A DNA stretch of 64,000 bases from Anaerolineales bacterium (lineage in GTDB: Bacteria; Chloroflexota; Anaerolineae; Anaerolineales; Villigracilaceae): positions 1 to 64,000 of the forward strand of contig JAFGMV010000110.1 of the NCBI GenBank assembly GCA_016927315.1, in the 5' to 3' direction. Positions 46,917-58,603 of this stretch are shown in pieces. A program made the translations under genes and the position numbers. The notes beneath the pieces are model-generated. The model did no database searches, was not told the origin of the DNA, and saw only the letters and a program-made list of their open reading frames with translations. Each line of letters starts with the position of its first letter. Position 1 is the first letter of the stretch.

Positions 46917-47660
46917 TTAGGCAATCCCCCAGGCATACCAGGTGGGAACATGCAGCACGCGGGTTTTGTCCTCACAGGCTTTCCGTTCGAGTTGTTTGTA
47001 GGCGGCCAGATCTTCAGAGGGGAGCAGTCCGGCCAGGTCGGATTCCAGGACAGCCCACTCGAGGTCCAATTCATCCGGGGAAGCTGGTCCGGTCCCGGTT
47101 CGGGCAAGCGGGCCGCTCTCAACCAGGCGGATGCCGGCCTGCTCGAACAGTTCTCCCAGACGGCTGCCGATGAATGGATCGGCGCCCTGCCTTTCCAGCG
47201 AGTCGGTTTGCAGCGCCCCCAGCACCGCCAGTTCGGGGGGAAGATCGATCCTGGCGTTGTAATCCGGCTCGGCCAGCGCCAGGACGTGCCCGCCGGGCCG
47301 GGTTACTCGCTGCATTTCGCATAGCAGCTGAACAGGCGCTTTCACCCACATCAGCAGGAAATGGCACAGGGTGATATCGAAAACCTGCGAGGCATACGGC
47401 AGCTGCCGGGCGTCTCCGTTGGCCAGCAGGGCCTGCGGGGCATAGATCTCTGCCTGGAGCAGGTGGCTGCGGGCGATATCCAGACCATGGAGCCCGGCTG
47501 TGCAGTGCGCCAGGCTTTCGAGGATGGCGCCTGTTCCGCAGCCGACCTCCAGGATGCGCCTGGCCTCCCACAGGCCGGTCTGTTCGAACAGGTAGGTGCG
47601 CAGGTCGTGCGTCCAGCGTGCCTGCTGAGAGAAGCGTGCATGCCAGTCAAGGGCCGGCAT
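46917..47660 (-). CDS. Class I SAM-dependent methyltransferase
   Basis: A 247-aa methyltransferase: motif I ILEVGCGTGAILESL, acidic loop GLDIARSHL, NGDARQLPYASQVFDITLC and RVTRPGGHVLAL, as in the UbiE/Coq5 group. The ATG overlaps the phosphatase stop (TAATG), so the two are translated together. The substrate is unknown. Confidence 0.9.
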   Translation of the reverse strand: MPALDWHARFSQQARWTHDLRTYLFEQTGLWEARRILEVGCGTGAILESLAHCTAGLHGLDIARSHLLQAEIYAPQALLANGDARQLPYASQVFDITLCHFLLMWVKAPVQLLCEMQRVTRPGGHVLALAEPDYNARIDLPPELAVLGALQTDSLERQGADPFIGSRLGELFEQAGIRLVESGPLARTGTGPASPDELDLEWAVLESDLAGLLPSEDLAAYKQLERKACEDKTRVLHVPTWYAWGIA

Positions 47661-48196
47661 TATCCCCGCGCTTCTGTCCAGCTGCGGACAAATTCAACCT
47701 GCCGGTCGGTTTGCGGTGAGCGGGGATAGAGGGTATGTTTGGGCACCTCCTGCCACCATTTGGCCAGTTGGTCGAGTGCTTGCTGGCCTGTCATCCCGTG
47801 CCGGACAAGGAAGCACCCAACGGTTGTGCCTGTCCGGCCGATACCTCCCCAACAATGAGTGTATACCCTGTTCCCGGAGGCCAGGGCTTCATCGATCGTA
47901 TCCAGGATGGAACGCATCAGTTTCGGTTCGGGAACGTCCATATCCCCGATCATGAAGCGCTTGTGGGCTGCTTCCAGGCCGTATAACCCGGCCTGCTCTT
48001 CCAGGATGAGCTGGTAGGGCTGCAGTTCTCCCGGGTGGGTCAGATCGATAAATGTATTGATCCCCATTTCAAGGAAGCTGTCCAACCGCTTGCGGGTTTG
48101 CACAGCATGCCAGTGTCCTGGATATTCCCCGGCCAGGAACTGGCCCGGGACCACCCAGTACGATTCGCGGATGGGAAGCGGGGGATTGGTGGTCAC
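47660..48196 (-). CDS. Dual-specificity-type protein phosphatase
   Basis: A protein of about 178 aa with the Cys phosphatase loop THCWGGIGRTGTTVG (HCxxGxxR) and a general-acid region near GDMDVPE. The family removes phosphate from Ser/Thr/Tyr or from non-protein substrates. The GTG at 48196 overlaps the stop of the preceding gene by one base (TAGTG). A TTG at 48220 would extend it by 8 residues into that gene. Confidence 0.88.
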   Translation of the reverse strand: MTTNPPLPIRESYWVVPGQFLAGEYPGHWHAVQTRKRLDSFLEMGINTFIDLTHPGELQPYQLILEEQAGLYGLEAAHKRFMIGDMDVPEPKLMRSILDTIDEALASGNRVYTHCWGGIGRTGTTVGCFLVRHGMTGQQALDQLAKWWQEVPKHTLYPRSPQTDRQVEFVRSWTEARG

Positions 48197-49269
48197 TATG
48201 GCTGCGCCAACTGGCTGCAAATGTTGGTCCGGATATGCTCTCGCAGACTGACCAGATCCGGGTACTCATAGAAGAAAAGGATCTTCTGGTCTGCAGTGGT
48301 ATTGCCAGTGGGTTTGGGCTGCAGTACGAAAAAGGTCCACGATTCGGCGATATCTTCTTCCGGGTTGGTTACGGCATAATCGGTGACAAAGTTGTCCTCG
48401 TACTTGTAATAGAAATCGTCGAGCTTTTCATAATAGACATCGTCATCTTCTTCCAGGTTGATATCGAACCATTCATCGTAGATGTCGTCCCAGAAACGGC
48501 CAAAGAAGGAGTTGATGTACGAGTCGCTATCTGCGCAGCCTTCACCCGGGAAGTAGTTCGGGCAGGCGGCTTCGGCCGCATCGTAGGCGGCATCATCTTC
48601 GGGGTCTGCGAATACATTCAGATCCGGTTCGACCTGGTCTTTGTTCAGGGTCAGCAGGTGGCCATATTCATGGATCAGGGTGTAGGTCAGGTTGTACAGG
48701 TCTTCGGAGTCAATGATGTCGATTTCAAGAGACCAGGAATACGGGTCTGCCGGATCCTGCGCAACGGCTGCCAGGCTGTTGTCCTGGCCGTCTGTCATTA
48801 TGATAAAGGCGGTCATCAGGGAACGCTCTCCAGAGGGGATCAGGGCGGCATAGTAGTCCCAGATCTCCTGGTGGGCAGCGGCATCATCCTGGTACGACTG
48901 AAGCTCCCCCGTAACCGATTCATGTTGAGGGTTCAGGATCCGGTCTCCGGAGATCTGGTAGGTTACCAGCACCTGGCCGTCCTCGCCATAGGGAGAATCG
49001 CCCTGGTCTTCAGAACTGTCAACCGGCGTAGTGGCGGCTGCAAGGATGCTGGATAGCACTGCCGGGCAGGCGGCGGCCTCCATTTGCGGTGCGGGTGCCT
49101 GAGGCGCTTCTTCGGCTGCAGCGTTGTAATCGCTCTCTCCGTCGTCATAATTATCGTACCCATCCTGATGTTCCTCATCGAGATAAGTGTTGATTGTCTG
49201 ACAAGAGAGCGTGGTGAACAGGGCCAGCACAAGCAGGGTAACAATAAAAAGTGTGCTTTTTGTTTTCAT
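48196..49269 (-). CDS. Secreted lipoprotein with zincin-like domain
   Basis: A 357-aa lipoprotein (lipobox TLSC) with an acidic linker and one domain of about 270 residues. It contains TYTLIHEYGHLLTL, an HExxH-type zinc motif, and about 90 residues later EEDIAESWTYFVL, where the second Glu fits the third ligand of a gluzincin. The C-terminus ends in EYPDLVSLREHIRTNI. It is likely a surface metallopeptidase of an unnamed family; activity is inferred from motifs. It is the single-domain paralogue of the next gene. Confidence 0.8.
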   Translation of the reverse strand: MKTKSTLFIVTLLVLALFTTLSCQTINTYLDEEHQDGYDNYDDGESDYNAAAEEAPQAPAPQMEAAACPAVLSSILAAATTPVDSSEDQGDSPYGEDGQVLVTYQISGDRILNPQHESVTGELQSYQDDAAAHQEIWDYYAALIPSGERSLMTAFIIMTDGQDNSLAAVAQDPADPYSWSLEIDIIDSEDLYNLTYTLIHEYGHLLTLNKDQVEPDLNVFADPEDDAAYDAAEAACPNYFPGEGCADSDSYINSFFGRFWDDIYDEWFDINLEEDDDVYYEKLDDFYYKYEDNFVTDYAVTNPEEDIAESWTFFVLQPKPTGNTTADQKILFFYEYPDLVSLREHIRTNICSQLAQP

Positions 49270-49323: not shown

Positions 49324-51171
49324 TCAGGGATGGCTTAGCTCCTGGCAAATTTGGGACCGGATATGCTGGCGCAAACTGACCAGCTCAGGGTAATCATAAA
49401 AGAACAGGATTTTCTGTTCGGCGAGGCTGTTCCCGGATGGTTTGGGGGTCAGCAGGAAGTAAGTCCAGGATTCGGCGATATCCTCTTCCGGAGCTGAAGC
49501 CGCATACAGGCTGACAAACTGGTCTTCATGTGCTTCAAAGAACGCCTCCAGCGAGGCATCTTGCATGTCATCGTTGTTTTCCAGGCCGATGAGCATCCAA
49601 TCCAGATAGATGGTTTCCCAGAATTGGTTGAAGAAGAGATTAATGAATGAGTATTCTTCGGCGCAGCCTTCCCCGGTGAAATAGCGAGGGCAGGCGTTTC
49701 TTGCCCGGGAGAATACCCGCACGTCTTCCGGGTTCGCGTAAACATCAAGATCTGGGGGGACCTGGTCGGCCTGCAGGGTCAACAGATGGCCGTACTCATG
49801 CAGCAGGGTATAGGTCAGTTTCCCTGTGTCTTCCAGGTCGGCGATATCCACCAGTAAGTTCCAGGTATAGGCATCCTCGCTGGTCTGCCGGACGTACGCC
49901 AGGCTGTTCAATGGGCCGTCGGTCATGATTGAGAATGTGGTCAGGCTGGTGCGTTGTTCGGCCGGGAACAGCCTGGCGAAGTATTCCCAGGTCTGGTAAT
50001 GTGTTTCAGTGTCCTCCTGGAACTCCTGTAAATCACCCTCCACGGGTTCAAGTTCCGGATATAAAAGTTTGTCTCCAGCAATGCGGTAACTGACAAGTTG
50101 TTGGCCGGTTTTTTCATACGGATGGGTTTCGTCCTGGATATGTTCTCGCAGGGCAACCAGCTCCGGGTACTGGTAGAAGAACAGAACTTTTTGTTCCGAG
50201 AGCGTGTCTCCGGAGGGTTTCCGGCCCAGTGCAAACCGGGCCCAGGAGGCGGTGATGTCGTCTATGGGGCTGTAGACAGCAGTAGGTGAGACAAACTCTT
50301 CCCGGTGTTTCTCATAGAAAGCGCTTTGGGTATTGATAGAATTCCCTGGAGTGTCCTGCAGAAAAGCCTCACTCCAATCTTCATACTTGTCTGCCCAAAA
50401 TTGAGCGAAAAAAACTTCGATGTAGGCTTCTTTATTGGCGCAGCCGGTACCGGTAAAGTAGTGCGGGCAGTTTATTTCTGCTGTTTTGAGGAGGTTTTCA
50501 TCCCCCGGATTTTGAAGGAGGCCCTTGTTGGGCGAGACCTGGCTGGTATTCAGGGTCAGAACCCGGCCATATTGTTCAACCAGGGAATAGGTTAGATTCC
50601 TGGAGTCTTCTGCGCCGGTGAAATCAACCAGTAGTCTCCATTCGTCGGGGTCCTGCGGATCCTGCCTGAGATCGGCAAGATAGTTTTCCGGGCCATCGGT
50701 CATAATACTGAAAGAGGTGATCATACCGCGCTGCTCGGCCGGGATCAGGCTGCTGAAAAGCTTCCAAATTTCCCGGTGGGTTTCGGTGTCCTGCTGGGCC
50801 TCTTTCAGAGGAGCTTTCACTTCTTCCTGCACGGGTTCCGACAGTTTGTCTTCCGAAATCTGGTATGTCACCAGCACCTGTACCTTTTCTGCGGTCTTGG
50901 TATCAGGCTGGTATTCACTGACGCCGTTATAGGTTTCTTCTCTTTCATTGAGTATTTCAGCCAGTATCCCGGCACACACCTGTGGGTTGGTTTCAGGTGT
51001 TGGGGTATGGGTGGGCGCCAGAACCTTTTTGCTGCCTTCGCTGTCGGCGGCTTCCGGGGTGCTGCTGGCGCTGTCAATATCTGGCATGATTTGGTAGACA
51101 GCCTGACAGGCCAGGTTGGCTGCCAGCGTCAGTATAATGAGAGTAGCGAGCAGGAAAGTTTTTTTGTTCAT
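49324..51171 (-). CDS. Two-domain zincin-like lipoprotein with one degenerate domain
   Basis: A 615-aa lipoprotein (lipobox NLAC) with two copies of the domain in the preceding entry. The second copy keeps LLHEYGHLLTL and EEDIAESWTYFLL. The first reads LVEQYGRVLTL and DDITASWARFAL, so both His ligands, the HExxH Glu position and the distal Glu are lost. It therefore has a dead and a live domain, probably by duplication and decay. A separate single-domain gene lies 54 bp downstream. Confidence 0.82.
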   Translation of the reverse strand: MNKKTFLLATLIILTLAANLACQAVYQIMPDIDSASSTPEAADSEGSKKVLAPTHTPTPETNPQVCAGILAEILNEREETYNGVSEYQPDTKTAEKVQVLVTYQISEDKLSEPVQEEVKAPLKEAQQDTETHREIWKLFSSLIPAEQRGMITSFSIMTDGPENYLADLRQDPQDPDEWRLLVDFTGAEDSRNLTYSLVEQYGRVLTLNTSQVSPNKGLLQNPGDENLLKTAEINCPHYFTGTGCANKEAYIEVFFAQFWADKYEDWSEAFLQDTPGNSINTQSAFYEKHREEFVSPTAVYSPIDDITASWARFALGRKPSGDTLSEQKVLFFYQYPELVALREHIQDETHPYEKTGQQLVSYRIAGDKLLYPELEPVEGDLQEFQEDTETHYQTWEYFARLFPAEQRTSLTTFSIMTDGPLNSLAYVRQTSEDAYTWNLLVDIADLEDTGKLTYTLLHEYGHLLTLQADQVPPDLDVYANPEDVRVFSRARNACPRYFTGEGCAEEYSFINLFFNQFWETIYLDWMLIGLENNDDMQDASLEAFFEAHEDQFVSLYAASAPEEDIAESWTYFLLTPKPSGNSLAEQKILFFYDYPELVSLRQHIRSQICQELSHP

Positions 51172-51197: not shown

Positions 51198-51638
51198 TTA
51201 TTCCCGGGACTGAATCATTTCGTTTACCAGTTCAGCGGCGCTTGCAACCAACGCCGGGCAGATATTCTGGAAGACTCCCTGTTCCTGGGCCCGGGTGCTT
51301 CCCTCGGGGGTGCTGATATCGCAGTCCAGCAGTTCTTTGCAGAGCAGGGAGCCATGGCGTTCCCGGAACCTGTCGAGCAGTACCTGGGAAATCCGGTAGG
51401 TTTCGACTTTTCCTTCCGGGGTCGAAGAGCCAAATTCAAGCCCCAGCGCCATCAGGGCGCCTGTCACTGCGCCGCAGGTCTGTCCCTGGCGAACAATCCC
51501 TCCACCGAACGGGGAGCCGATTTTCAAGGCAGTTTCTTCCGGCAGGTCGTGCCGGCTGGTAAAGGCTGCAAAGACGGCCTGGGAACAGTTGAGTCCTTCA
51601 GTGAAGCGTTTCCTGGCGGTTTCGACTGGGTCTGGCAT
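51198..51638 (-). CDS. C_GCAxxG_C_C family protein
   Basis: A 146-aa cysteine-rich protein: NCSQAVFAAF near the N-terminus, GQTCGAVTGALMALG, LLCKELLDCD and NICPALV give the spaced cysteines of the C_GCAxxG_C_C (redox-related, Cys_C2-type) family, with the central motif slightly altered to CGAVTG. The ATG at 51638 has AGGAGAT at 5-bp spacing. Function in the family is not settled. It lies 19 bp after the prs stop. Confidence 0.85.
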   Translation of the reverse strand: MPDPVETARKRFTEGLNCSQAVFAAFTSRHDLPEETALKIGSPFGGGIVRQGQTCGAVTGALMALGLEFGSSTPEGKVETYRISQVLLDRFRERHGSLLCKELLDCDISTPEGSTRAQEQGVFQNICPALVASAAELVNEMIQSRE

Positions 51639-51657
51639 TTGTATCTCCTGTATCGGA

Positions 51658-52641
51658 TTATGACCCATAGAAGAAAAGTTCTCCGATGGATTCGTGGAAG
51701 TAATTTTTCTTGATCGCTTCCCCAAAGACCGGGGCTACGGACAGGGTGGTCAGTTTGGGGTGTTGTTTCTCAGGAGGCAGGTAGACAGTATCGGTTGTTA
51801 CGATTTCGGAGATCTGGGGAATATCGACCAGTTTTTGCAGGCCGTCATGCACGAAGACGCCATGTGTGCAGGCTACCCAGATATCCTGGATGCCTTCTTC
51901 GATCAGGATACGGCTCAGTTCAATCACCGACCCTCCGGTGGCAATCTCATCGTCATAGATCAGCGCCCGCTTCAGACCTTTCAATGAGTTCCCGATAACA
52001 CCGTTGATGATTACTTTTGTGTCCGAGACCCGTTCCTTGTTCCCAGCGGCTACCGGCAGGTTCATTTCTTTGGCGAACTTGGCCGCGGACTTGGCCTGTC
52101 CCATGTCGGGAGCGACGATGATAGCGTTGGCCAGGTCTTTCTGGGAGAAATAACTCGAGAAGACCGGCCGGCTGGAGAGCGGGTCGGCAGGGATGCTGAA
52201 GAAGCCGTGTACCTGCGGGGAATGGAGAACCATGCTCATCACATGCGTGGCGCCGGCGGTCTTCAGCAAATCTGCAATCAGCCGGGCGGTGATCGAGATA
52301 CGGGGGGCATCCTTTTTGTCCGAACGGGCAAAGGAGAAATAGGGAATAATGGCGTGTACTTCTTTTGCAGATGCCGAGCGGGCAATATCGATCATCATCA
52401 ACAGTTCGACCAGGTTGTCATTAACCGGCTGTGTCAGTGACTGGAGGATGTAGACGATGCGTGAGCGCACACTGGCGCCAAGCTGGATGTACAGGTTGTC
52501 GTTCGAGAAGCGGCTGGTCTTGGTCTCAGCCAGTTCCACCCCCAGGTAGCGTGCGATGTCAGAAGCCAGTTGGGGATGCGAACTGCCGCTGAAAAAGCGT
52601 ACTTCGTTCGGGTCGAGCGTTCGGTCAGTGTCTTTTATCAT
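51658..52641 (-). CDS. prs: Ribose-phosphate pyrophosphokinase
   Basis: A 327-aa PRPP synthetase: FSNDNLYIQLGASVRSRIVY, IIPYFSFARSDKKD, and the PRPP-binding loop ALIYDDEIATGGSVIEL. It makes PRPP from ribose-5-phosphate and ATP for nucleotide synthesis. It uses ribose-5-phosphate, the same pool touched by the microcompartment RpiB elsewhere in the window, although no regulatory link is visible. Confidence 0.95.
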   Translation of the reverse strand: MIKDTDRTLDPNEVRFFSGSSHPQLASDIARYLGVELAETKTSRFSNDNLYIQLGASVRSRIVYILQSLTQPVNDNLVELLMMIDIARSASAKEVHAIIPYFSFARSDKKDAPRISITARLIADLLKTAGATHVMSMVLHSPQVHGFFSIPADPLSSRPVFSSYFSQKDLANAIIVAPDMGQAKSAAKFAKEMNLPVAAGNKERVSDTKVIINGVIGNSLKGLKRALIYDDEIATGGSVIELSRILIEEGIQDIWVACTHGVFVHDGLQKLVDIPQISEIVTTDTVYLPPEKQHPKLTTLSVAPVFGEAIKKNYFHESIGELFFYGS

Positions 52642-53577: not shown

Positions 53578-54726
53578 TTACTGCTTGTAGATCTGTTCCC
53601 AGGGATCTTTGAGGATGTTCCCCAGGAGGGACCCGGCCATTCCCTGTGCGGGGAGCACATCCCCGTCCGGTTCAACGTATAACCAGGTTTTACCGGCCCC
53701 CCTGGGCGCCTGTTCTTCTTTGACTTCCAGGGAAACCGGGTTGTCCTCCGAGTAAGGAACCGGCAGGTCGAAGGTTAGCGCCAGGTCCAGTTCGGCGGCC
53801 CGGTCGGCCAGCATCGCCAGGGTTTCCTTAAGACTCTCTTCCGATATACTCAACGACAGGCTGGTGACGCCCAGGCCTGCAAGTTTCTCGAGGGTCTGGT
53901 TGGCTTCCTTCAGGTGCGCCGGGGTGACTGTCCAGTGCACGGTAACGAAGATGTCTTCTGGCATGATGCTTTCCAGGGCTTTCCATGAGTGCCTGTCTTC
54001 TGGCTGCAGCAAGAAGAGCAGGTGGTCCAGCCCGGTTTGAAGCAGGTTATTCAGGTACTTCTTGTCAGCCAGTTTCAGGCCATTGGTCAATAGGCCGCAA
54101 ACCTGGCCGTTTTGTTCGGCTTTTTCGATAATCTGGGGGAGGTCTTCCCGCAGGGTGGGTTCGCCGCCGGTCAGGGTGATATGGGGGATGCCGGCTGCCC
54201 AGGCGATGTCCAGTACCCGGCGCCATTCGTCCGTGTTCAATTCCCGGTCGACGCGTTTGGTCGGCGCGTAGTCGGCCTGGCTGTCCTTTGGCAGCTGGTA
54301 GGTCAGCGCACAATCCAGGCGCAGAGGAGCGGGCAGGGCTTCGGAATGGGGCGCCACCCGTTCGAAATCCAGATACGTAACCGGGTCCAGGTCCGGGGTG
54401 TCAATCAAGGTTTCGATGCGTTCCGCGAAATTCAGGAAGTCTTCCAGGGCGGTTGCCTTCCGGATGCGGTAACGTCCGGCGATCTCTTTGGCGGTCTGGT
54501 CAGCTGGCGTGCCTTTGACAAAGTGGTAGGCATATTCAGCCGCAGTGGGGTTGAGATGCAGCACGGTGGAAGCGTTGATCACCAGCATCCCGGAGCCGTC
54601 ATTCCTGAGATGCAGATGCAGACGGTACGGGTCTTTGCCCTCCGGAGTGACCAGGGTATGGTGCATCCCGGTGGGGAGCGGTTTTACGGGGGTGAACAGC
54701 TGTTTGATAAACTCGATCGGGTCCAT
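53578..54726 (-). CDS. Degenerate radical SAM/SPASM-fold protein without cluster cysteines
   Basis: A 382-aa paralogue of the radical SAM enzyme encoded upstream. It aligns from a PqqD-like N-terminal domain (about 20-110) through LTLTGGEPTLREDLPQII, the usual SAM-binding GGE. At the CxxxCxxC position (145-152 in the active protein) it reads LPKDSQAD, so all three [4Fe-4S] cysteines are replaced. The C-terminal YVEPDGDVLPAQG also lacks the two SPASM cysteines. It cannot hold the cluster and is probably a non-catalytic partner or substrate-binding subunit. It is the last gene of the five-gene cluster. Confidence 0.85.
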   Translation of the reverse strand: MDPIEFIKQLFTPVKPLPTGMHHTLVTPEGKDPYRLHLHLRNDGSGMLVINASTVLHLNPTAAEYAYHFVKGTPADQTAKEIAGRYRIRKATALEDFLNFAERIETLIDTPDLDPVTYLDFERVAPHSEALPAPLRLDCALTYQLPKDSQADYAPTKRVDRELNTDEWRRVLDIAWAAGIPHITLTGGEPTLREDLPQIIEKAEQNGQVCGLLTNGLKLADKKYLNNLLQTGLDHLLFLLQPEDRHSWKALESIMPEDIFVTVHWTVTPAHLKEANQTLEKLAGLGVTSLSLSISEESLKETLAMLADRAAELDLALTFDLPVPYSEDNPVSLEVKEEQAPRGAGKTWLYVEPDGDVLPAQGMAGSLLGNILKDPWEQIYKQ

Positions 54727-54752
54727 GCTCTCTCTCCTTTTGGACGGGAGTA

Positions 54753-55088
54753 TTAATCGCGAATAAAGTGGGGCATTTCTTCAGGCAAGTGGAAGGTGAT
54801 CTCAACCAAGCCTGAATACTTCCCGTTTTCATACCAGGGGAACTGGTGGATAATTTCCTTTTGACCTTTTTTCTCAATCGTATAGGTGTTGGTCGTCTGG
54901 CTGCGCATCATTTCGACCAGCTTTGTTCGGGCTGGCTCGGGGTGGCAGTCCAGGAGATTAGCGCCGATCAGGCCGCGGCCTCCATTGCTTGCAAAGGCTT
55001 CGGCGGCCTGGTCGTTCATCTCCAGGATGGTCCCCTCCGGGTCGCAGACGGTGACAGAGCCGTTGAATTCCTTGACCCAGTTATTCAT
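54753..55088 (-). CDS. PAS-domain protein
   Basis: A 111-aa single PAS domain (VTVCDPEGTILEMNDQAAEAF, then LIGANLLDCHPEPARTKLVE, then PWYENGKYSGLVEITFHLP). No kinase, cyclase or DNA-binding domain follows, so it would sense a ligand or redox state, or act as a small-molecule binding subunit. It overlaps the radical SAM stop by 4 bp and precedes the degenerate paralogue by 26 bp, so it belongs to the same operon. Confidence 0.85.
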   Translation of the reverse strand: MNNWVKEFNGSVTVCDPEGTILEMNDQAAEAFASNGGRGLIGANLLDCHPEPARTKLVEMMRSQTTNTYTIEKKGQKEIIHQFPWYENGKYSGLVEITFHLPEEMPHFIRD

Positions 55089-56446
55089 GCAGGTGTACCC
55101 TCCTGGTCCAATTCAAACTGCAGCGGACAGCCGCCGCCGCATTCTGCCAGCAGTTCACAACCTTTACATTTCAATGGCAGCCCCTGCCGTTCGCGCAGAC
55201 GGATGCAGAGTTCGTGGTTCCAGATGGTATCCCACTCGTCGCCCAGGAAGTCGCCTACCGGCGTATAGTACGACTGGCAGGGCAGTACTTTACCGTCCGG
55301 TTCAATGCACATGTTGTACAGCGCCGCGGAGCACCCTTTGACCCCCAGTTCCATCTGGACCGGATCGAAGTTGCAGTATTGGGTGGGGGTATACCAGATC
55401 AGGCGCTGGTTGTTTGCCTGGGTCTTCTGGCGGGCAATTTCCAGCAGACGGGGTAGTTCGCTCTCAGGCAGACCCGTACCAACCGTGGCGCCTTGCCCCG
55501 AGTAGATCAGTGCGTTCAGGCCGATGGTTGGTACGCCGAGTTCGGCCAGGAAGTCCAGGGTGGCCGGGATGGTATGGTGATTGTCTTGCAGCATGGTGGT
55601 GTTGGTCATAATGTACAGCCGGGTATCCAGGGCGTTCTTAAGCCCCTGGATGGTCTGCTGGAAGGCTCTGGCGCGCACCATTTGATTGTGGATGGCTTCG
55701 TCGGACGATTCGACTGTAATCTGGATATGATCTAGCCCGGCCTCGACCAGGCTTTGCAGGAAGTTCTTGTCCGAAAGCCGGCGGGCATTGGTGTTCAGGC
55801 CGGTGATCTGGCCGTTGTGTTCGGCGTAGGCAATCAGCTCCGGCAGGTCATCCCGCAGGGTGGGTTCGCCGCCGGTGAAGACAATGTGTGGGATCCCCAA
55901 CTCCCAGGTCTTGTCGATGATCTGCTTCCATGCGGCTGTACCCAGTTCAGAAGAGCGGCCGGTGGTGAGCGGGGGGTGTTCCGGGTTGTAACAGTGGGCG
56001 CAGTCGTTGTTGCAGCGATAAGTGACTGCCAGGTCCATACGGTAGGGCGCTGAAGGGCGGGCGCTGAAGGGAGCGATCGAATCAAGCCCCAGGTCATGGA
56101 TTGGGCAGGCCCCATCCGGCCGGACCAGGTTATCGAGCTGGTCCCGGATCTCCTGGAAATCCATGCAGGCCTGCGCTTCCCTGACACGATACTGCTGCCG
56201 GATGGTCCTGAGGGCCTGATGCTCCGGGGTTTTTTCGAGGACCAGGAAGGCCATCAGGGCTGCCGTCGGATTGAGATGCATGACCTGGTTGGCATTGACG
56301 ATCAAGGTCCCGTGCCCGTCCTGGTCCACACGCAGGTGGACGCGGGATTTCTCACCGTCATCTTCGTATTGATAGTGATAGAGGCCCGCCGCCGGACCAC
56401 CGGCAGTGAATCTGTCGGGAGTTCTCAGCCTTTGGAAGATATTCAT
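55085..56446 (-). CDS. PqqD-like / radical SAM / SPASM enzyme
   Basis: A 453-aa radical SAM protein with three parts: an N-terminal PqqD-like peptide-binding domain (about 25-105), a radical SAM core with CNNDCAHC at 145-152 and FTGGEPTLRDDLP, and a C-terminal SPASM domain with CIEPDGKVLPCQ and CKGCELLAECGGGCP for further clusters. This is the architecture of enzymes that modify ribosomal peptides (PqqE, SCIFF and sactipeptide maturases). The ATG at 56446 lies 7 bp after the DUF2207 stop; the longer frame overlaps that gene's Cys-Ala tail. Its likely substrate is the tail of the upstream protein. Confidence 0.9.
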   Translation of the reverse strand: MNIFQRLRTPDRFTAGGPAAGLYHYQYEDDGEKSRVHLRVDQDGHGTLIVNANQVMHLNPTAALMAFLVLEKTPEHQALRTIRQQYRVREAQACMDFQEIRDQLDNLVRPDGACPIHDLGLDSIAPFSARPSAPYRMDLAVTYRCNNDCAHCYNPEHPPLTTGRSSELGTAAWKQIIDKTWELGIPHIVFTGGEPTLRDDLPELIAYAEHNGQITGLNTNARRLSDKNFLQSLVEAGLDHIQITVESSDEAIHNQMVRARAFQQTIQGLKNALDTRLYIMTNTTMLQDNHHTIPATLDFLAELGVPTIGLNALIYSGQGATVGTGLPESELPRLLEIARQKTQANNQRLIWYTPTQYCNFDPVQMELGVKGCSAALYNMCIEPDGKVLPCQSYYTPVGDFLGDEWDTIWNHELCIRLRERQGLPLKCKGCELLAECGGGCPLQFELDQEGTPA

Positions 56447-56453
56447 CTTGTCA

Positions 56454-58127
56454 CTATCTGCCGCCGCCGGCGCAGGCGCAGGCGCAGCCGGCGCAGGCAC
56501 AGGCGCAGGCGCAGCCGCTGCTGCCGCCGCTGCTGCGGTAGCTTGAACCGGAGGATTTCGGGACCGGGTTGGTCTTCTCAGTGACCGTTCCGGTGAAACC
56601 GCGGATATCTCCCAACACCTTGGAGGACATATTCTGGACGCCCCCCACAACCGACGCGGCAAAAGCGGAACCTGGGATGGAAGCCCCGCCCGGAACTTTC
56701 CCGGTGGTGGAGGTCATGGCCGGCATACCCCCGCCGGTTGAAGGGGCTGAAGGCCGGTAGCCGGGATCATAGTGGTGCCACCAGATGGGCATGAAGATCG
56801 GCCCGGTGAAGGTGCGGCGGGTGCGTTCGTCGTAGTCTTTATCCAGCATGGTCCATTCCAGGGCTTCTTCGAAACGCTGGCTCTTGACTTCCGGTGTGTC
56901 GGCGGCCTCAACCTGGGCCCAGGCCCGTTCGTTGAGCTTCTTATAGTAATCAACGGTTTCCTTGCGGCTGAAGCCTCTCATCTTCTGACCGACGCTCTTG
57001 ACCAGGTTGATGGTCATGGTTTGCAGCTTGTTGCGGCGCACAAGGGGTTTGTTCTCTTCGAAGGCTTCCAGGAATTCTTTTTCGTAGGTGTGCAGCTTTT
57101 CAGGGATGGGTTTGGTAATATCCAGCTGCAGGGGATCCTTGGAGACCACTTTCGCGGCGTCTTTCTTGATGACTCCGAACAGGATCATGGTCATGACCTT
57201 ATCGAGAGGGGTTTCCATCAGGATGGCGGCTTCGACTGCCGATAGACCGCGCTTGATGCCGTGGCCTTCGACCGAAATCTTGGGCGGCAGGTATTTCAAC
57301 TTCCGGTTGCGGTTGCCGATGGCGGCGAGAACAGGCATGCCAAAGAACAGCAGGAAAAAGAAGCCGGGACAGGCGCAGCTCATGAAATTATCAAGATCGA
57401 ACCTGAAGGCAGGAACAACAGGAGGCGCGACGATCGCCTCTTCCGGAATGTAGGTCTTCGGGAAAGAAGCGCCGAATTTATACTGCGTGTGAGCGTTGGC
57501 GTTTGCTGCCCGCCAGGTGTACATCACCCGTCCGGATGAATCTAAACCGGTTTCGGGTTCCTGCGGCCCCGGCCAGCTGCTGCTGGGAACATGGAACTTG
57601 GGCTCTTCAGGCAGTACCCCGGGAGGCAGGTGGTAGACCACAGTCAGGTCTGTACTGCCGGTAACGTACTCACTGCCGAACCACGTCGGTGAAAAGACGC
57701 CGCTGGCGTATGAGTTATCGTCGCTGTCATCATAGATCACATTCCTGACCTGGCCCACATACACATGGACCGTCCCGGTCTGCCCGGCCGGGATCTGTTT
57801 GTTTTCCAGGACTACCGCGAAACCTGAACCGCTGCCCTGGTAATCGGAGCGTGAAACAGAGACGACACTGCCGTCGACATCCGCACTGGCGGTGTTGATG
57901 TCAAAGCTGCTGTTGGGCATGCCCATATCGACAAAGTCGATGGCGTGGGCGCCGCTGTTGTTGGCGAACACCAGGGTATAGTCCAATGACATGGTACCGT
58001 CGGCGTTCCAATAGACATGCACGACCTCTTTGGGTACGCCAAAGGAATAACTCTGCGCCAGGACGCCCGTTGTCAGCACCAGTGCAAAGAGGATCGTCAG
58101 AACAGAAGCCAGAAAACGTCGTTTCAT
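56454..58127 (-). CDS. DUF2207-like membrane protein with a Cys-Ala repeat tail
   Basis: A 557-aa protein: signal peptide (1-25), an external domain of about 220 residues, a membrane helix around 251-271 (CACPGFFFLLFFGMPVLAA), a cytoplasmic region with helical domain (about 300-440), a Gly/Ser/Pro-rich linker, and a tail reading GSSG(CA)4G(CA)3GGGR. Seven Cys alternate with Ala at the extreme C-terminus. By the positive-inside rule the tail is cytoplasmic, where a radical SAM enzyme could act. GGAGGTAACACC precedes the ATG. I infer, but cannot prove, that the tail is the substrate of the adjacent enzyme. Confidence 0.85.
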   Translation of the reverse strand: MKRRFLASVLTILFALVLTTGVLAQSYSFGVPKEVVHVYWNADGTMSLDYTLVFANNSGAHAIDFVDMGMPNSSFDINTASADVDGSVVSVSRSDYQGSGSGFAVVLENKQIPAGQTGTVHVYVGQVRNVIYDDSDDNSYASGVFSPTWFGSEYVTGSTDLTVVYHLPPGVLPEEPKFHVPSSSWPGPQEPETGLDSSGRVMYTWRAANANAHTQYKFGASFPKTYIPEEAIVAPPVVPAFRFDLDNFMSCACPGFFFLLFFGMPVLAAIGNRNRKLKYLPPKISVEGHGIKRGLSAVEAAILMETPLDKVMTMILFGVIKKDAAKVVSKDPLQLDITKPIPEKLHTYEKEFLEAFEENKPLVRRNKLQTMTINLVKSVGQKMRGFSRKETVDYYKKLNERAWAQVEAADTPEVKSQRFEEALEWTMLDKDYDERTRRTFTGPIFMPIWWHHYDPGYRPSAPSTGGGMPAMTSTTGKVPGGASIPGSAFAASVVGGVQNMSSKVLGDIRGFTGTVTEKTNPVPKSSGSSYRSSGGSSGCACACACAGCACACAGGGR

Positions 58128-58155
58128 GGTGTTACCTCCCCGCCATATGCGGAAT

Positions 58156-58183
58156 TCTACAATCTACAATCTACAATCTACAA
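58156..58183. repeat. Short tandem repeat (7 bp, four units)
   Basis: TCTACAA is repeated four times without interruption in the 68-bp gap between the zinc-ribbon gene and the DUF2207-like gene. It lies about 30 bp upstream of the DUF2207-like start on the minus strand. Confidence 0.8.
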
Positions 58184-58195
58184 TCCAAAATTCGC

Positions 58196-58603
58196 CTACC
58201 ACTTGGGTTCTTCGGTTAATTGGTACACCGTGTCACAGTAAGGGCAGTTGACCATGGGGGCGCCGTCGACCAGTTTGATGTTTTTCGAGGTGAGCGCGCC
58301 GCCGCAGGATTGGCACTTCATCTGCTCGATCTTGGTCTGGCCGGGCAGGTCAACCTGCAGGGTTACATTTTGTTGGGCAGCCTGTTCAGCTTTTTGCTTA
58401 CGCATCGCTGTCACCACCAGTACAACACCGCCTGCGACCAGCAGCACGCCGATCAATATCAATCCGACAGCCAGGGGCTGCCAGGCCGTGTCTCCCATTT
58501 GCGGATCGAGTGAACCCAGGTAAATGAAGCCGCCTCCGCCGATGCCGCAGGCGGCCATTGCGAAGAGCACAACCGCGAGTATGTATGCAACGTTCTTGGA
58601 CAT
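58196..58603 (-). CDS. Small membrane protein with zinc ribbon
   Basis: A 135-aa protein with two hydrophobic helices (about 7-30 and 44-65), a short charged segment, and a C-terminal zinc ribbon MKCQSCGGALTSKN ... VNCPYCDTVY. The topology places the ribbon in the cytoplasm. It is the first gene of the five-gene radical-SAM cluster, 68 bp upstream of the DUF2207-like gene. Confidence 0.82.
   Translation of the reverse strand: MSKNVAYILAVVLFAMAACGIGGGGFIYLGSLDPQMGDTAWQPLAVGLILIGVLLVAGGVVLVVTAMRKQKAEQAAQQNVTLQVDLPGQTKIEQMKCQSCGGALTSKNIKLVDGAPMVNCPYCDTVYQLTEEPKW

Follow-up and report, generated by a model that had tools for sequence, protein, structure and literature searches.

The question raised by this locus is whether a radical S-adenosylmethionine (SAM) enzyme can act on the C-terminal tail of a large membrane protein encoded beside it. 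The locus lies on contig JAFGMV010000110.1 of an Anaerolineales bacterium, of which the first 64,000 nucleotides were analysed (the window), and comprises five genes in the order E, A, B, C and D; A encodes a membrane protein ending in alternating cysteine and alanine (the CA tail), and B encodes the enzyme. A sequence-only reading of this DNA had suggested that the system modifies a large anchored protein in place, and this is the best-supported reading, by virtue of the co-occurrence of tail and enzyme. Irrespective of the chemistry involved, we consider in-place modification of this tail by B likely. The features on which the question turns are listed below, where RRE stands for the recognition element of enzymes that act on ribosomally synthesized and post-translationally modified peptides (RiPPs).

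56454..58127, minus strand: gene A, 557-aa membrane protein, the presumed substrate.
56457..56513, minus strand: Cys-Ala tail of A, CACACACAGCACACAGGGR, residues 539-557, invariant at the protein level; the presumed modification site.
56559..56672, minus strand: conserved segment of A, residues 486-523, from column entropies and model helices; putative site of RRE recognition.
55085..56446, minus strand: gene B, RRE-like (PqqD-like)/radical SAM/SPASM enzyme with CX3CX2C intact.

Co-occurrence of the tail and the enzyme

Co-occurrence was surveyed in 298 genomes of the class, and gene neighbourhoods were mapped at about 115 loci. The sequence-only reading had asked how often such tails and such an enzyme are found together. 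A CA-type B is present in all 39 genomes with a CA tail, as opposed to 4 of the 259 tail-less genomes. A second kind of tail, made of HSAC units and described below, has its own type of enzyme, found in 32/32 HSAC-tail genomes and in 2 of the 266 without; this count takes in ten genomes with variant tails that were read directly because the DNA pattern does not match them. The association has p values of about 1e-44 (CA) and 5e-41 (HSAC) when relatedness is ignored. The CA tails are spread over 14 families of the survey with patchy losses, and B is the usual next gene after A across the mapped loci.

Losses of the two genes go together in family f1, where the five genomes of the survey that lack A all lack an active B. 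In one of these, G192, D is intact and the methyltransferase gene that often accompanies the operon is in fragments; these remnants are a relic of the operon. A relic operon is seen at L216:1100-3752, where an intact pseudo-radical-SAM gene adjoins a fragmented methyltransferase gene and A, B, C and E were not found.

The four genomes with a CA-type enzyme and no tail are G006 (B at a contig end), G128 (B on a 3.5-kb contig), G157 (68% complete) and G005 (85% complete; family f8, A and B unlinked). Contig ends or incomplete genomes offer the best explanation for the enzyme-only exceptions overall, and in these four A was most plausibly missed through assembly incompleteness.

The Cys-Ala tail

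The C-terminus of A is exactly CACACACAGCACACAGGGR, that is, the tail form (CA)4G(CA)3GGGR that had been read from the DNA. A genome-wide search for the (CA)n pattern at the DNA level gave a single match. Across 396 genomes of the class, 70 contain the CA-G-CA pattern, and the reversed control pattern gave one match. Outside the class, the CA pattern was found in 1 of ~260 genomes of the phylum, at a locus (L186) where A and B lie 0.5 kb apart. Homologues of A occur in 72 of the 298 surveyed genomes, and 82 proteins carry (CA)nG(CA)mGGGR tails, most frequently in the (4,3) and (3,4) forms, with Cys followed by Ala at 567/567 positions. Within the nG3 class (n of 3 or more), 47/47 orthologues share identical final 17 residues; in these proteins, the Cys, Ala, Gly and Arg codons of the tail vary freely at synonymous sites and the linker ahead of the tail is variable. 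Because the amino acids are invariant while synonymous codons vary, the CA tail is, as judged from these alignments, under strong purifying selection. Tandem A paralogues have near-identical tails on bodies that are 49-59% identical, with one active enzyme alongside.

These data bear on the simplest alternative, in which a low-complexity DNA repeat accounts for the tail and the gene neighbourhood is a coincidence. Although the sequence is GC-rich and repetitive, the invariance of the residues despite freely varying synonymous codons and the co-occurrence with the enzyme (p about 1e-44 before relatedness is considered) refute this alternative, which we give practically no credence. A chance or low-complexity repeat is excluded by the reversed-pattern control as well.

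The enzyme and a second tail type

B had been described as a PqqD-like/radical SAM/SPASM protein, and both the domains and the intact cluster and SPASM cysteines bear this out. Its Pfam domains are Radical_SAM, SPASM (PF13186, E 2.6e-7) and a weak PqqD, which scores 20.2 against a cut-off of 23.4 bits in the window enzyme, whereas an HSAC-type enzyme lies above that cut-off at 32.8 bits. In the predicted model (mean pLDDT, the predicted local distance difference test score, of 86) the N-terminus consists of strands followed by three helices, in keeping with an RRE-like domain. The cluster motif is CNNDCAHC, and its cysteines C145, C149 and C152 are invariant in 71/71 enzymes, as are the SPASM cysteines C358, C372, C390, C427, C430, C436 and C440, which include a CX2CX5CX3C motif. 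The model matches the structures of SkfB, SuiB, PqqE, CteB and anSMEcpe; by sequence, PqqE and SkfB are the best matches among solved structures, PqqE scoring highest. A known NCBIfam equivalog was rejected as the identity of B, every match being far under its curated cut-off.

The HSAC tails belong to a second, remote branch of the A family (18-24% identity over the alignment). They consist of ~50 residues of HSAC units with 11-13 Cys, and Ala directly precedes Cys at 371/399 positions. At these loci (L069:6949-10188, L187:5291-8529 and ~30 others), the tail protein is directly followed by its own radical SAM gene; a coiled-coil protein is encoded after this B, and farther on a secreted InhA-like metallopeptidase homologue. 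CA and HSAC repeats on homologous bodies pair with two separate enzyme clades. The same loci or genomes also encode ordinary DUF2207 proteins whose tails are cysteine-free and Gly-only, and no radical SAM gene adjoins these.

Might the tail instead stay unmodified, as a metal-binding, Fe-S-binding or redox tail, while B has another substrate or makes a small cofactor for A? Poly-Cys tails are capable of metal binding, E is a zinc-ribbon protein, and the top sequence match of B among solved structures, PqqE, functions in cofactor biosynthesis. We nevertheless regard this as unlikely, given the complete co-occurrence of tail and enzyme, the separate enzyme clade for each tail type, the RRE-like domain on B and an operon that holds no other conserved peptide gene.

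The membrane protein

In the predicted model of A (mean pLDDT 85), a signal helix is followed by an ectodomain, one transmembrane helix (245-274), a cytosolic part with a winged-helix-like element, and the tail. Compared with solved structures, the modelled ectodomain resembles Ost1/ribophorin I and the N-domain fold of M1 aminopeptidases (6ezn chain A: VIA Z 17.4, root-mean-square deviation 2.7, 183 aligned), and no solved structure was related to A by sequence. The cytosolic part is modelled as helical, with two conserved helices, 486-505 and 508-519, ahead of the tail, which is predicted to be disordered and is situated behind the single transmembrane helix. By column entropies, residues 486-523 (PGxxFAxxVV...FTxxVTxxTNPxP) are conserved, and they are mostly predicted helical. 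Because A has a signal peptide and one transmembrane helix followed by Lys/Arg-rich sequence, the tail should, on this model, face the cytosol.

A had been called DUF2207-like, which holds only in the sense of remote homology. Window A has no Pfam or NCBIfam match at E<0.1, and reaches neither PF09972 nor PF20990 at the curated cut-off. Its HSAC-tailed relatives match the DUF2207 N-domain (E 1.8e-4) and TIGR04222 (E 4e-8), both under curated cut-offs; for TIGR04222, the relative in L069 scores 33.1 bits against a cut-off of 43, and window A gives no match. Conversely, a profile of A matches true DUF2207 proteins at 50-112 bits, and these matches together with those of the HSAC-tailed relatives establish, at the level of sequence profiles, a remote homology between A and DUF2207. 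Like DUF2207 proteins (PF09972/PF20990), A has a signal peptide, an ectodomain, a transmembrane helix, a cytosolic part and a low-complexity C-terminal tail, ordinarily Gly-rich; unlike them, its tail has Cys repeats, and the later transmembrane pair of ordinary members is not predicted in A.

Two composite proteins were seen among the mapped loci. At L071:978-4406, a 1143-aa Ser/Thr kinase-AAA-TPR protein carries the C-terminal ~130 residues of A, CA tail included, as a fusion, and B comes next; this may be a true domain transfer or an assembly chimera of the metagenome-assembled genome, and it was not used as key evidence. At L065:7445-10144, a protein kinase is joined to an A-type ectodomain-like region plus an FGE-sulfatase domain.

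Operon and neighbouring genes

All five genes were confirmed, all on the minus strand and where the sequence-only reading had placed them. Besides A and B, they and the methyltransferase gene are the following.

58196..58603, minus strand: gene E, small membrane protein with two hydrophobic stretches and a C-terminal zinc ribbon (CQSC...CPYC); upstream partner.
54753..55088, minus strand: gene C, PAS-like small protein.
53578..54726, minus strand: gene D, pseudo-radical-SAM paralogue with an RRE-like N-domain; presumed non-catalytic partner.
46917..47660, minus strand: class-I SAM methyltransferase (Methyltransf_11), orthologous to the methyltransferase found right after the operon in many relatives.

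The mechanical open reading frame (ORF) of gene B begins at 56662 and runs over the tail region of A; from the sequence, the true start is likely the ATG at 56446, directly past the stop of A. As had been noted, a small precursor gene is absent: no small ORF fits the gaps between the operon genes, and the sole partner with a Cys repeat is A itself. Gene E is kept next to A in most CA loci, and gene C is found in a minority of loci only. The arrangement seen in families f23, f37 and f52 is E, B, pseudo-B, A, at times with a second A.

D had been taken for a radical SAM paralogue without its cluster. It indeed lacks CX3CX2C, as well as the SPASM cysteines, and retains an RRE-like N-domain. Pseudo-radical-SAM partners have at least two origins within the enzyme tree, CX3CX2C being absent each time, and details of this tree are unsure because it is a quick tree with long branches. 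Clustering of neighbours yielded a class-I methyltransferase on the same strand, at or near the operon end, in 44 loci, and a profile built from these found ten more at high score. Its gene follows D, or A in f52, f37 and f23, often overlapping or only a few bases off. It is present in 33 of the 39 CA genomes as compared with 4 of 259 others and 1 of the 32 HSAC genomes, that one also having a CA system. The window copy is intact and lies about 6 kb downstream of D; an apparent in-frame TGA is an artefact of an alignment extending upstream of the start, and the ORF 46917-47660 is open. The genes of the five-gene system stand as proposed; the HSAC tail type, the methyltransferase and the repeated origin of the pseudo-enzyme had been missed.

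Between D and the methyltransferase gene, the window encodes a C_GCAxxG_C_C putative redox-active protein on the same strand (51198-51725) and two adjacent lipoprotein-like genes with HEYG-type motifs (49324-51171 and 48196-49269), one with a weak Peptidase_Mx match; a cluster related to this pair recurs close to the operon in 11 loci of the family. A membrane protein of ~345 aa is encoded between B/C and D or right after the operon at L036:4766-5806 and in 13 further f1 loci. It was not found in this window, and the L136 copy, the one scanned, has no Pfam match. No MNIO (DUF692) enzyme was found in the scanned window genes or the scanned recurring neighbours, which are not all of the neighbours. 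A role in anti-phage defence was rejected, the PADLOC matches being only to generic radical SAM and methyltransferase domains.

The neighbourhood also bears on whether A is a mere carrier, whose modified tail is cleaved off and released as a small RiPP. An RRE plus a C-terminal core is the usual RiPP layout, and secreted metallopeptidase-like genes are close by in some loci. Such a release nonetheless seems improbable to us: the annotated recurring neighbours include no recognisable cytosolic leader peptidase or ABC exporter, the tail is predicted to be cytosolic, and the conservation of the A body goes far past the needs of a leader. The product is probably still attached to A, because a conserved leader peptidase or exporter is lacking among those annotated neighbours.

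Proposed mechanism

The analysis shows the order of the genes, the conservation of the tail, its co-occurrence with the enzyme, the motifs of B and the predicted folds. From these we infer that the tail is modified and by what chemistry, which way it faces, that it is not cleaved, and what D and the methyltransferase do. In this scheme, B, perhaps together with D, would use its RRE-like domain to dock on the segment of A around residues 486-523. B would then split SAM at the [4Fe-4S] cluster bound by CX3CX2C and use the SPASM clusters to act on the Cys-Ala units of the disordered cytosolic tail while A is full-length and anchored. D, a paralogue presumed to be catalytically dead, would probably serve as a scaffold or recognition partner, and the methyltransferase probably methylates the tail. 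Neither cleavage nor export would be needed, which would leave the product membrane-bound on the cytosolic side.

As for the product, the alternation of Cys and Ala suggests a chain of intramolecular thioethers from each Cys sulfur to a neighbouring Ala carbon, with 2 Da lost per link; we put this forward tentatively as the single most likely product, at somewhat less than even odds. A variant of the same explanation, to which we attach similarly qualified credence, is that B modifies the tail by other chemistry, such as oxidation of Cys at C-beta, epimerisation, C-C crosslinks or a metal-binding heterocycle, which the methyltransferase finishes. Anaerobic sulfatase maturases can oxidise Cys at C-beta. 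SPASM enzymes are chemically diverse, the fold matches include anSMEcpe with Cys peptides, and a methyltransferase accompanies the CA system. In addition, the MNIO enzymes proposed for the related TIGR04222 proteins are thought to target Cys differently (PMC12452194). On the other hand, a strict alternation of Cys donor and possible Ala acceptor suits crosslinking, and the thioether enzymes SkfB and CteB are among the closest solved relatives of B, though PqqE scores highest.

Several points weigh against in-place modification of the tail by B. The surveyed genomes are kin, and the p values therefore overstate independence. A and B are unlinked in G100 and G173, several f37 and f52 loci have just the pseudo-enzyme nearby, and 6 of the 39 CA genomes gave no methyltransferase match at the threshold applied. 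A tail of only Cys, Ala and Gly limits the acceptor carbons to these three residues. Finally, the case is built on sequence and predicted folds.

Relation to known systems

The nearest precedent in print is a proposal that the Cys-rich tails of TIGR04222 membrane proteins are targets of MNIO enzymes (PMC12452194). In both systems, membrane proteins of a related superfamily carry a C-terminal low-complexity Cys-rich tail adjoining a RiPP-type enzyme, and bona fide proteins are the proposed targets. However, the enzyme is an MNIO there and a radical SAM/SPASM protein here, where strict CA or HSAC repeats make up the tail. The tail is proposed to be periplasmic there and predicted to be cytosolic here, and about a third of TIGR04222 genomes are without MNIO genes, whereas the association here is complete. 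The sub-threshold match of the HSAC branch to TIGR04222 suggests that the two systems may share a superfamily and differ in chemistry.

B shares an RRE-like domain, a CX3CX2C core and SPASM clusters with the sactipeptide/ranthipeptide maturases SkfB, CteB and AlbA and with SuiB. These act on small peptides, whereas B would act on the tail of an integral membrane protein of ~560 aa, with a pseudo-enzyme and a methyltransferase as companions and no peptidase or exporter recognised. That such an enzyme can target a functional protein, and not a released peptide, has a precedent in QhpD, a radical SAM/SPASM enzyme that forms thioethers in the gamma subunit of quinohemoprotein amine dehydrogenase; its substrate is a soluble periplasmic subunit with Asp/Glu acceptors and without a repeat tail or membrane anchor. 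Asp-Cys dipeptides in up to six repeats have been described in the presumed core beside a SPASM-type radical SAM gene (Clusters 59 and 115; PMC9062424). Unlike the proteins studied here, those are small peptides with Asp rather than Ala paired with Cys, and a membrane protein is not described (PMC9062424). Our search, outside which most subscription literature lay, turned up no description of radical SAM enzymes associated with DUF2207-like proteins or with CA or HSAC tails.

Taken as a whole, we lean towards a view in which a full-size integral membrane protein has its repeat tail permanently remodelled in situ by a radical SAM enzyme of the RiPP type, giving a membrane-bound poly-Cys appendage that carries polycyclic thioethers or some other modification, the CA and HSAC codes having evolved on one superfamily. 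As to biological role, bufferins suggest by analogy, and only as a guess, that the protein might serve as a metal, redox or sensing element anchored in the membrane. A and B make a directly testable enzyme-substrate pair, and the simple core of Cys, Ala and Gly suits a search for new Cys-Ala chemistry. Together with the MNIO/TIGR04222 proposal, our results suggest that RiPP enzymes act generally on the low-complexity Cys tails found in this superfamily. If the in-situ view holds, RiPP-style radical chemistry would reach the permanent modification of large membrane proteins in at least 15 bacterial families, and would here be a means of protein modification, not a route to a released peptide.

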